64,000 bases of DNA. Source: Cochleicola gelatinilyticus. GTDB lineage: Bacteria > Bacteroidota > Bacteroidia > Flavobacteriales > Flavobacteriaceae. Shown here in pieces: positions 17,842 to 25,981 of the stretch. Within the stretch, counting starts at the first letter, position 1, and every line of letters begins with the position of its first letter. A program made the translations under genes and the position numbers. The stretch spans positions 124,001 through 188,000 of the forward strand of contig NZ_LRXL01000026.1 in assembly GCF_001637325.1 (NCBI RefSeq). The letters are read 5' to 3'. The notes under the pieces are model-generated. The model ran no database searches. It was not told the DNA's origin and was given only the letters and a program-made list of their open reading frames with translations.

Positions 17842-17869
17842 GGAATGTTTTATTTATTTTTTTGCAAGA

Positions 17870-17914
17870 GGGATAGAATACGCTACCGTGTAGCGATGAT
17901 AGCCCGACCCGACC
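17870..17914 (+). repeat. Structured GGGATAG...AGCCCG intergenic element, copy B
   Basis: The plus strand reads GGGATAG (17870-17876), then a CGCTAC/GTAGCG hairpin (17881-17886 with 17890-17895), then AGCGATGATAGCCCG ending at 17906, followed by ACCCGACC. The same frame words occur in a second copy at 25420-25486. It sits between exbD and tonB and is antisense to that operon if read in this direction. Confidence 0.55.
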
Positions 17915-17933
17915 TAGGGTCTTGCCACATTAA

Positions 17934-18326
17934 TTAATTAGGCCGTACTGCTAAAACGACTTTATAACTATTTTTATTGGCAATGTCCATCACAAAAACA
18001 GCGTCTTCGATCGGAACCCCTTCTTCAGCACGGAGGATAATCGTGGGATCCTCTGTTCCGGCTAGTACCGTTTTTAATTCTTTTTCTATACTGTATTCGC
18101 TTACTCGTTCTTTGTTAACGTAGTAGGCACCGTCTTTGGTTATACTTACGGAAGCTTTCTGTACGTTGGTACTTTTCCCTTTTGCCTTTGGCAGAATAAG
18201 GTCAAGCGCATCGGGGGTAATTGCAGGCGATGTTAATAGAAAAAATACCAGCAACAGAAATACAATATCTGTCATGGAACTCATGCTAAATTCGGCACTT
18301 ACTTTATTTCTTCCTCGTAAATTCAT
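17934..18326 (-). CDS. exbD: Biopolymer transport protein ExbD
   Basis: 130 residues. ExbD has one transmembrane helix and a periplasmic domain and works with ExbB as the ion-driven motor for TonB. The helix (about residues 18-38) begins SMTDIVFLLLVFFLL and contains Asp20, the ion-pathway aspartate of the family. The periplasmic part includes VNKERVSEYSIEKEL and ends in VVLAVRPN. Its ATG overlaps the exbB stop codon by one base (TAATG), so translation is coupled. Only one exbD is present; flavobacteria often have two in tandem. Confidence 0.9.
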   Translation of the reverse strand: MNLRGRNKVSAEFSMSSMTDIVFLLLVFFLLTSPAITPDALDLILPKAKGKSTNVQKASVSITKDGAYYVNKERVSEYSIEKELKTVLAGTEDPTIILRAEEGVPIEDAVFVMDIANKNSYKVVLAVRPN

Positions 18327-24188: not shown

Positions 24189-25331
24189 ATGGATTTTAGT
24201 CTTTCCGAAGAGCACTTAATGATTCGCGACGCAGCACGTGATTTCGCTAAAACCGAATTATTACCCGGTGTCATAGAACGTGATAACGAACAACGCTTTC
24301 CAGCCGAACAGGTAAAAAAAATGGGAGAGCTAGGATTTCTAGGCATGATGGTCGACCCAAAGTACGGCGGTGGCGGAATGGATACGATTTCGTATGCGAT
24401 TGTTGTGGAAGAATTAAGTAAAATTGATGCTTCGTGTTCGGTGATTGTTTCTGTAAATAATTCATTAGTATGTTACGGAATTGAAGCCTACGGAACCGAA
24501 GATCAAAAACAAAAATACCTTACCAAATTAGCGACCGGTGAAAAATTAGGAGCGTTCTGCCTAAGCGAACCGGAAGCAGGAAGTGATGCAACTTCGCAAC
24601 GCACTACAGCGATCGACAAAGGCGATCACTACGTACTTAACGGAACAAAAAACTGGATCACCAACGGAGGTTCTGCAGATTATTATCTAGTAATCGCACA
24701 AACCGATAAAGAGAAAAAACACAAAGGAATTAATGCTTTTATCGTTGAAAAAGGCTGGGAAGGATTTGAAGTAGGTCCTAAAGAGGACAAACTCGGAATT
24801 CGCGGAAGCGACACCCACACCCTTAATTTTAACGACGTAAAAGTTCCTAAAGAAAACCGCATTGGCGAAGAAGGATTCGGATTCAAATTCGCAATGAAAA
24901 CTCTTGCCGGAGGACGTATTGGTATCGCCGCTCAAGCTTTAGGAATTGCAGCAGGTGCGTACGATCTAGCGCGAGAATACAGTAAAGTGCGTAAAACGTT
25001 CGGAACCGAAATCTGTAATCATCAGGCCATCGCTTTTAAACTTGCCGACATGCACACCAGCATCGAAGCAGCACGTCACTTGGTAATGAAAGCAGCTTGG
25101 GACAAAGACCAAGGTAACAACTACGACATGAGTGGTGCTATGGCAAAATTATACGCTTCACAAGTGGCAATGGATGTTTCGGTAGAAGCTGTTCAGGTAC
25201 ACGGTGGAAACGGATTCGTAAAAGAATACCACGTAGAACGTATGATGCGTGACGCAAAGATCACACAGATCTACGAAGGGACTTCAGAAATACAAAAGAT
25301 CGTAATTTCTAGAGGACTATTAAGAGACTAA
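24189..25331 (+). CDS. Acyl-CoA dehydrogenase (short/branched-chain type)
   Basis: 380 residues, the normal length. It introduces a double bond at C2-C3 of acyl-CoA with FAD and passes electrons to an electron-transfer flavoprotein. It shows the N-terminal helical domain, the FAD/substrate motif GAFCLSEPEAGSDATSQRTT, WITNGGSADYYLV, and the C-terminal QVHGGNGFVKEYHVERMMRD. The probable catalytic base is Glu363 in QIYEGTSEIQ, the position used in short-chain, butyryl- and glutaryl-type enzymes. Specificity (butyryl, isobutyryl and so on) is not resolvable. It stands alone with its own promoter box and terminator; codon use is noticeably GC-richer than its neighbours, suggesting high expression. 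Confidence 0.92.
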   Translation: MDFSLSEEHLMIRDAARDFAKTELLPGVIERDNEQRFPAEQVKKMGELGFLGMMVDPKYGGGGMDTISYAIVVEELSKIDASCSVIVSVNNSLVCYGIEAYGTEDQKQKYLTKLATGEKLGAFCLSEPEAGSDATSQRTTAIDKGDHYVLNGTKNWITNGGSADYYLVIAQTDKEKKHKGINAFIVEKGWEGFEVGPKEDKLGIRGSDTHTLNFNDVKVPKENRIGEEGFGFKFAMKTLAGGRIGIAAQALGIAAGAYDLAREYSKVRKTFGTEICNHQAIAFKLADMHTSIEAARHLVMKAAWDKDQGNNYDMSGAMAKLYASQVAMDVSVEAVQVHGGNGFVKEYHVERMMRDAKITQIYEGTSEIQKIVISRGLLRD

Positions 25332-25352
25332 ATCTAAAAACACTTATAGAAG

Positions 25353-25382
25353 AACCCGGCCATTTTTTGTGTCGGGTTTTTT
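25353..25382 (+). terminator. Terminator of the acyl-CoA dehydrogenase gene
   Basis: AACCCGGC (25353-25360) pairs with GTCGGGTT (25371-25378), with one G-T pair, and runs into six T (25377-25382), 22 bases after the stop codon. Confidence 0.85.
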
Positions 25383-25419
25383 ATTGGGGCAACTTTGCTT
25401 CCGCGCTGCTACAGCAAAA

Positions 25420-25486
25420 CGGGCTATTCGCTTTTACGCCTCGCACCTCCCTTTAGTCGGTACTGTGGGGTAACCGCTGCTATCCC
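25420..25486 (-). repeat. Structured GGGATAG...AGCCCG intergenic element, copy A
   Basis: The minus strand begins GGGATAGCAGCGGTTACCCC (25486-25467) and ends AGCGAATAGCCCG (25432-25420). The outer words match copy B at 17870-17914. The TAG inside GGGATAG is the stop codon of the acetyltransferase gene. Elements of this look, placed directly behind genes, are as I recall common in flavobacterial genomes; a homology search would settle it. Confidence 0.55.
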
Positions 25487-25932
25487 TGTCGCAACTCGAA
25501 ACGCACTTTCCGGATTCCGAAGTCAGTATCCCATTGTTTTACTTCGGTAAAGCCATATTTTTTATACAACTGAATCGCTGGAAGATTTGCCACTCCTGTT
25601 TCTACCATAAACAAATTGGTATCGAACGACTTCAGAACAAACTCCATAACTACTCCTGCAATTCCTCTTCTAAAAAACTTAGGAGCTACCACCAAGCTTT
25701 GTATGTGAAGAAACGTATCTCGATGCGCAATCTCAACAACCGCCGCAAGGGTGTCATTTTCAAAATATCCAAAAAAATCATTGCTGCTAGAAATAAAACT
25801 TTCCAACTCTCTTTGTAAGGGAGGAAAATCGACCGCTTTTAAGAGTTCTGCTTCCACCGCATACGACACCTGAAAAACAGCACGTATTTGTTTTGCCATC
25901 TCAAGATCTGTATGTTGCAGTTTTTTAATCAT
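25480..25932 (-). CDS. GNAT-family N-acetyltransferase
   Basis: 150 residues from the ATG at 25932; a TTG seven codons upstream is a weaker alternative. The acetyl-CoA site is IQSLVVAPKFFRRGIAGVVM, with a slightly altered Q/RxxGxG/A loop (RRGIAG). The tail GVANLPAIQLYKKYGFTEV is the classical motif B with conserved Asn and Tyr. Cytoplasmic; substrate unknown. The stop codon lies inside repeat element copy A, so the last residues (LRQG) may be set by the element. It follows the putative porin gene by 49 bases on the same strand. Confidence 0.85.
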   Translation of the reverse strand: MIKKLQHTDLEMAKQIRAVFQVSYAVEAELLKAVDFPPLQRELESFISSSNDFFGYFENDTLAAVVEIAHRDTFLHIQSLVVAPKFFRRGIAGVVMEFVLKSFDTNLFMVETGVANLPAIQLYKKYGFTEVKQWDTDFGIRKVRFELRQG

Positions 25933-25981
25933 TTCTAAATCACAGTACGCCAAAATTCACGAACAACTGTTTGGTAAAAGG

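Follow-up and report, generated by a model that had tools for sequence, protein, structure and literature searches.

A probable dispersed DNA repeat of the Flavobacteriaceae, with three arms and a changing hairpin core, at the end of a GNAT acetyltransferase gene

Results

Layout of the locus

The DNA analysed (the window) is a stretch of 64 kb from Cochleicola gelatinilyticus that carries two copies of a structured element, the first of which overlaps the end of a minus-strand gene. The product of this gene is a GNAT protein by Pfam. R1, a covariance model of the whole element, matches the first copy at 25383-25498 on the minus strand (all 94 positions of the model, with flanks; E 1.5e-9, 48.3 bits) and the second with an E value of 3.7e-6, and nothing further in the window falls below an E value of 1. 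The model was built from 52 copies, including three rows from the same genome (L016, L017 and L020) and neither of the window copies. The parts of the two copies and the genes that they touch are as follows.

25384..25493, minus strand: complete three-armed element, copy 1 (R1 match and the end motifs T|GC...GC|CCAAA of 160 copies)
25488..25492, minus strand: 5' arm of stem P1, GCGAC, overlapping the GNAT codons L, R and Q (predicted in RNA and DNA minimum-energy folds)
25421..25486, minus strand: P2, a long mismatched hairpin GGGATAG...ATAGCCC, equivalent to the arm in Rfam Flavo-1 (sequence, Flavo-1 score of 22.2 bits, fold)
25480..25482, minus strand: TAG stop codon of the GNAT gene, within P2 (sequence and reading frame)
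25394..25418, minus strand: P3, a second hairpin TTTGCT...AGCAAA (RNA and DNA folds)
25389..25393, minus strand: 3' arm of P1, GTTGC (RNA and DNA folds)
25384..25388, minus strand: 3' tail CCCAA, an end that copies share (profile of the ends of 160 copies)
25480..25953, minus strand: GNAT acetyltransferase gene, its last codons and stop within the element (PF00583, E 4.6e-11; C-termini of 12 relatives)
17864..17925, plus strand: complete element, copy 2 (R1 34.1 bits, E 3.7e-6; RNA fold z -3.52)
17870-17905, plus strand: P2 of copy 2, flanked by P1 arms GCAAG/CTTGC and followed by P3 at about 17906-17921
17934-18326, minus strand: exbD gene, antisense to copy 2 (ExbD, PF02472)

The original prediction described a GGGATAG-type element at 25420-25486 that on the minus strand starts with GGGATAGCAGCGG and ends with AGCGAATAGCCCG. 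Both words are present in the sequence and the interval is a genuine arm of the element, but it is the middle arm only, and the whole element extends over 25384-25493. A second copy with the same outer words, GGGATAG...ATAGCCCG, was also correctly recognised; these words span 17870-17906 on the plus strand rather than 17870-17914, and 8 nt separate the 3' end of the complete copy from the end of exbD, which is antisense to it. The minimum-energy fold of copy 1 has the three stems both as RNA and as DNA, with an unremarkable fold energy in either case (z -0.69 as RNA, 1.45 as DNA); the RNA fold of copy 2 does have an unusual energy (z -3.52). An intrinsic terminator (a GC hairpin followed by a T run) was rejected as an identity for the element since a pattern scan of 25300-25560 returned zero matches, although a hairpin and T run at 25354-25384 likewise escaped the scan. 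That hairpin lies behind an acyl-CoA dehydrogenase gene (24189-25331, plus strand), adjoins the end of the element and resembles a terminator by eye.

The end of the GNAT gene

The reading frame at 25480-25953 on the minus strand closes at 25482-25480, so that the TAG of GGGATAG is, as had been proposed, the GNAT stop codon. Within the element lie this stop, the codons for R, Q and G, and two bases of the preceding L codon. GNAT proteins of 12 related genomes have similarly short tails (...KVKFELKKG and ...KVKFELRKP versus ...KVRFELRQG here), and the element was not found in the 137 bases 3' of the stop in any of the 12; the element therefore did not shorten the protein. Judging from these C-termini, the last codons and stop of the gene were either replaced or accommodated, and the gene takes both from P1 and P2. 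The locus illustrates how such a repeat can turn into the coding end of a gene.

The P1 arm of this copy is itself unusual. GCGAC is absent from the 114 P1 arms compared, and it fits its partner GTTGC with one G.T pair; a copy on a viral contig (L376) carries the same GCGAC paired with GTCGC. The combination GCGAC/GTTGC would be accounted for if one arm were constrained by coding and the other had compensated. The supply of stops or the capping of open frames, which had been suggested, is not supported as a general property of the element: just 5 of 160 copies contain the end of a gene, which in two of them comes in from the 5' side, like the GNAT gene, and in three from the 3' side.

Structure and covariation

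Alignment with flanks of copies from this and related genomes gives a conserved layout that reads, from the 5' end, T|GC-NNN-A, GGGATWG...AWAGCCC, GACC..GG and NNN-GC|CCAAA, where the two NNN are complementary. Among 160 copies, which range from 60 to 147 nt in length, the element ends have only T|GC and GC|CCAAA in common and there is no further strong base preference outside them. Conserved terminal inverted repeats of the kind found in MITEs were considered and rejected, as the ends are just 5-6 bp long and, apart from GCGTT in 76 of 114 copies, vary with compensation.

The set of 160 copies was defined by an exact match to GGGATWG..AWAGCCCG and at least four of five P1 pairs, with G.T allowed on the strand that corresponds to Flavo-1 (the Flavo-1 strand). 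Because this set was chosen by P1 pairing, P1 figures taken from the 160 copies or from the 52 rows lean towards structure, while the tests on 61 and 114 copies described next, and likewise a strand test on 189 copies, are free of that choice. With the P1 partner fixed by anchors, three of three pairs form in 59 of 61 copies compared with 33 in shuffles (the 61 are those with a GCCnA anchor among 87 copies from 103 matches). All five P1 pairs form in 92 of the 114 copies with a usable anchor; 22 have fewer, and among the 15 of these that were listed, 10 are one-base register slips and 5 have a wrong anchor. In P2, the sixth base and its partner (W6) form a Watson-Crick pair in 155 of 160 copies versus 93 in shuffles (110 T-A and 45 A-T; the other 5 are A-A). 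Pairs x10 (152/160, shuffled 104) and x11 (115/160, shuffled 58) behave in the same way; beyond W6, x10 and x11, the outer letters of P2 are set by the search pattern.

For a structure of 20 pairs in three arms, 95.9% of cells in the 52 copies are paired compared with 82.1% after shuffling, and changes on both sides occur at 12 pairs versus 7.2. Its covariation score is 0.360 as opposed to 0.112 in shuffles, none of 500 shuffles equals it, and sliding the partners by 1-3 columns lowers the score to 0.067 or less. Seven rows of this alignment, A1, have a wrong 3' end (L016, L017, L020, L036, L254, L257 and L259). RNAalifold, applied to the same 52 copies, which include three core types, predicts P1 and most of P2 and does not predict P3. 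P3 is the weakest arm, with 88.2% of cells paired and, over its three pairs, just one cell in which both sides have changed. Covariation in P1 and P2 is far above that of shuffles, so that the absence of covariation that would have refuted the original prediction is not observed for these two stems. One strand, the Flavo-1 strand, can probably fold into a three-way junction consisting of P1, P2 with its variable core, and P3.

The evidence tilts modestly, short of proof, towards the Flavo-1 strand. This strand is the better folder in 134 of 157 copies in a set chosen with P1 pairing, and for P2 with no P1 condition in 144 of 189, or 129 of 189 after dinucleotide shuffles; when flanks are included the figure is just 105 of 189. 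Over the 114 P1 arms, G.T occurs 23 times compared with about 38 in shuffles, 14 of the 23 being at one pair, and A.C occurs 5 times compared with about 19, which is a stronger depletion than that of G.T. At two P2 pairs of the 160 copies there are 8 G.T and 2 A.C.

Relation to Flavo-1

P2 resembles Rfam family Flavo-1 (RF01705) in having GGGATTG...AAAGCCC with the same mismatch pattern, and it is a covarying mismatched hairpin of the form GGGAT..AGCCC. The Flavo-1 model scores the first window copy at 22.2 bits, under its gathering cut-off of 42. The model has 16 matches in the C. gelatinilyticus genome, 10 of them above the cut-off, and 15 of the 16 coincide with R1 matches, including all of those 10; at one of them, C44:112385, the R1 match is partial (positions 15-69, E 0.033). 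Based on this coincidence, Flavo-1 corresponds to the P2 arm. Rfam models P2 alone, whereas the element adds P1 and P3 and accommodates several alternative cores in one frame, and Flavo-1 is thereby extended by an outer stem and, probably, a third arm.

Flavo-1 is given in a 2010 table as a likely RNA that is not cis-regulatory (Weinberg et al. 2010, PMC2864571). The parts consulted of a transcript study in F. psychrophilum describe Flavo-1 matches that lie indistinctly sense or antisense to transcribed regions, with many in none (PMC9723704), and a review counts Flavo-1 as one of the most abundant families of small RNA in bacteria, giving no function in the part available (PMC9029176). No description of the three-arm form was recognised in the literature searched, a body of work that most subscription papers fall outside. 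Many Bacteroidota annotations of small RNAs would need revision should Flavo-1 prove to be a single arm of a dispersed, three-armed repeat of DNA.

Copies in this genome and others

In the genome, which is 3.39 Mb long, the loose pattern GGGATWG..AWAGCCC matches 37 times, compared with 3 times when read backward, where the original prediction might have failed through fewer copies than expected by chance. The covariance-model search that had been proposed for the genome and its relatives gave 38 R1 matches in the genome itself at E <= 0.1 and, at E <= 0.001, matches in 78 of 149 genomes, this one included; at most 28 candidates were scored per genome, and counts across genomes are therefore lower bounds. 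Copy number together with covariation bears out the view of the element as a dispersed structured repeat.

Copy number varies among lineages. The strict pattern matches 77 times in one of the other genomes, designated G043, and not at all there when reversed as a control; 70 of the 149 genomes have one match or more, where singletons may be due to chance as in some genomes the control also yields between one and three. Most genomes that lack the element are small (median 1.8 Mb versus 3.4 Mb). In a further genome, G033, the P2 arms of different copies are near-identical and their flanks unrelated. Two copies of the C. gelatinilyticus genome, L009 and L012, have identical P2 arms and differing P3 arms and flanks, as if P2 had been homogenised separately.

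The idea that the element is a mobile non-autonomous unit is consistent with copy numbers that differ by lineage, but neither a clean empty site nor a partner enzyme was found for it. None of five comparisons of filled with unfilled sites gave a clean insertion, the difference being larger than the element or the flanks failing to align, and no target duplication or exact junction was obtained from these five empty-site alignments. By eye, no mobile gene was found near copies among the 12 most recurrent clusters (480 ORFs from 136 loci). Reverse transcriptase (PF00078) is absent from the genome at E <= 0.01, and for this reason a retroelement or retron RNA was rejected. A search of PLSDB plasmids and INPHARED phages with one B-type copy as the query returned no match. 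Thirteen stretches of viral contigs hold one of two scanned patterns, and copies occur on contigs labelled viral in IMG/VR (L367:1623, L368:9015, L371:3815, L376:2854 and L379:54), two pairs of which are identical across samples.

Position relative to genes

All four arrangements of neighbouring genes occur around copies. Gene ends, however, are unevenly distributed: for the 3' end of the element, 38 of 87 cases have a gene that ends inside the element or within 20 nt, and for the 5' end 12 of 76 do (p 0.0003 for 38 versus 12). In the 62 copies of G043 and of G150, a related species, the corresponding figures are 22 of 37 and 4 of 30. Genes for these counts were called as longest ORFs of at least 80 amino acids, and both counts share the copies of G043 and G150. 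The 38 gene ends are antisense to the Flavo-1 strand and the 12 are sense; the 3' end of the element often lies directly behind a stop codon, antisense to the gene concerned.

One site recurs upstream of a thioredoxin gene. Seven genomes, which represent four or more genera and include two Dokdonia species, have a copy in the same orientation roughly 70-200 nt upstream of thioredoxin.

L322:2733, L338:2790, L332:2823, L013, L033, L052 and L229: copies upstream of thioredoxin, with several different P2 cores

A conserved cis element of thioredoxin, which the four genera had seemed to indicate, was rejected on finding a copy at just 3 of 78 named loci. The site could be either a hotspot or an old site with losses.

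Different cores at shared sites

The frame of the element, consisting of P1, the outer part of P2, and P3, carries differing P2 cores. Species of the genus of G043 have differing cores at one and the same site: at site A, G043 and G155 have core B and G150 has core D, and at site B, G043, G155 and G150 have core B and G157 has core D. A length of 820 kb of G043 was also compared with 800 kb of G150, with flank identities of 70-98%. Together with sites A and B, this comparison gave 23 sites that hold an element in both genomes, in identical orientation. When the sequences of these were read, 12 had the same core, 10 had different cores and 1 was degraded in one species; automatic core labels gave 10 same and 13 different. 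The clearest case is position 324902 of G043 versus 106752 of G150, where the frame is nearly identical on both sides and encloses core C with a long insert in one genome and core B in the other. At four of the 10 sites with different cores (297430, 774380, 799625 and 816275) the alignment of the flanks begins only some way out from the element, which makes these sites less certain, since separate insertions into one intergenic region could account for them. In the two Dokdonia species, the copies upstream of thioredoxin have in common the infrequent P1 arm GCGTG (2 of 114 arms) and a similar P3 and differ in the P2 core.

A short core, G, is found in 17 of 34 copies from the C. gelatinilyticus genome and in 2 of 126 from others; most of the others were found by a pattern that is too long for core G, and the contrast was therefore set aside. 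Core G is absent (0/62) from the G043 and G150 copies, which were found with no such limit on length. In one species a palindrome, CCCGATAGCTATCGGG, is present in the tips of several P2 hairpins, for example in G150 near 495746 of C1 (175747 in the block), as though other hairpins could be slotted into the tip.

Discussion

The element is probably one instance of a structured, non-coding DNA repeat that is dispersed in the Flavobacteriaceae and whose hairpin core is exchanged between copies. Copies would spread and be overwritten at the DNA level by a process acting on the folded single strand, candidates for which are template switching, gene conversion between copies, or some further enzyme, and they would sit between genes because they are least harmful there. 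Spread as DNA is suggested by the copy numbers, by near-identical arms within unrelated flanks, by the lack of a consistent gene context and by the published transcript pattern of Flavo-1, as far as the consulted parts of that study describe it (PMC9723704). Several observations count against this reading. Neither a clean insertion nor a mobilising gene was found in the comparisons above, P3 has little covariation, the fold energy is weak and the difference between strands is modest, and sites such as that upstream of thioredoxin recur in several genera. A more specific version, put forward here only tentatively, is that the folded frame stays fixed in place while its P2 core is replaced by unrelated cores of other copies, either through a structure-guided process on a single strand or by a dedicated enzyme, and that Flavo-1 is a by-product. 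Replacement of cores at fixed sites, if true, would be testable and would amount to a fast form of concerted evolution for which ordinary insertion is no simple explanation.

Alternatively, the element could be a functional RNA, either cis-regulatory or a small RNA as in Rfam, transcribed from the Flavo-1 strand. The covariation of P1 and P2 would equally arise from an RNA, the modestly better folding of the Flavo-1 strand is in keeping with one, and sites that recur in several genera, as upstream of thioredoxin in seven genomes, could mean a function in cis. The neighbouring genes vary, though, and copies occur in both orientations; nearby gene ends are mostly antisense, the P2 core differs at shared sites, and few of the named thioredoxin loci have a copy. 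Published Flavo-1 matches, in the parts of the study consulted, are likewise sense or antisense and often outside transcribed regions (PMC9723704). A functional RNA is unlikely on this evidence.

It is also conceivable that the element belongs to the 3' untranslated region of its neighbours, as a terminator, a stabiliser or a supplier of stops, in which case it would probably be read from the strand opposite Flavo-1. The clustering of gene ends at its 3' end, seen in both of the partly overlapping counts, and the stop codon inside the element in the window point in this direction. The mRNA of those genes, however, would carry the strand that folds somewhat less well, and relative to shuffles A.C is rarer than G.T on the Flavo-1 strand (5 of an expected 19 versus 23 of 38). 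No terminator was found by the pattern scan around the element, and few copies contain a gene end. A 3' RNA structure of the neighbouring gene, which the original prediction had offered, is accordingly doubtful given the excess of antisense gene ends, the better folding of the Flavo-1 strand and the indistinct sense and antisense placement of Flavo-1 in the consulted parts of the F. psychrophilum work (PMC9723704), and a role in the 3' untranslated region is altogether quite unlikely.

It is very unlikely that the element is a classical REP whose movement depends on a REP-associated tyrosine (Y1) transposase, even though it is palindromic, extragenic, of high copy number and often just behind stops. 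Across the 149 genomes the Y1_Tnp domain does co-occur with the element (41 of 78 genomes with the element versus 11 of 71 without, p 2e-6), but the association is gone among the 80 genomes of at least 3 Mb (34/65 versus 7/15, p 0.78), and among the 18 genomes that have 19 matches or more, 8 lack any Y1 hit. The C. gelatinilyticus genome has no Y1_Tnp at E <= 0.01, and the P2 pattern was found at none of 30 Y1 loci of relatives within about 1.5 kb on each side. Finally, a chance resemblance of two short words can be dismissed, for although the end word A[AT]AGCCCG by itself is common (5 in the window versus 2.5 expected, an insignificant excess), the E values of the whole-element model and the genome-wide excess over the backward pattern rule it out.

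The reading as a DNA repeat with exchanged cores invites comparison with known repeat systems. E. coli REP elements are described, in the part of the source consulted, as dispersed extragenic palindromes often close behind stop codons (PMC12306157). The element shares their dispersal, palindromic form, extragenic location, large number of copies and frequent position close behind stops, and it differs from REP/RAYT systems in having three arms instead of a single hairpin, in the absence of Y1 from the genome and in the absence of its pattern from the 30 Y1 loci. The repeat behaves like REP, ERIC or BOX and, by the tests made, is not a member of the REP/RAYT class. ERIC and BOX are structured intergenic repeats of about 100 nt with many copies, and BOX is modular; compared with them by description, the modularity of the element consists of a changing hairpin core within a fixed frame. 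The attC sites of integrons form a folded single strand with a variable tip and conserve structure more than sequence, and in these respects the element is similar. It differs from attC in that P1 varies with compensation and has no fixed core site, and at the loci examined copies stand singly between ordinary genes.

Two further sequences accompany copies in other genomes. A word resembling TTAGCAAATATGCCC lies just upstream of many copies in G043. Beside site A, at L119:9019-9155, there is a different dispersed repeat that is about 85-92% identical among its occurrences at many places in the genus of G043.
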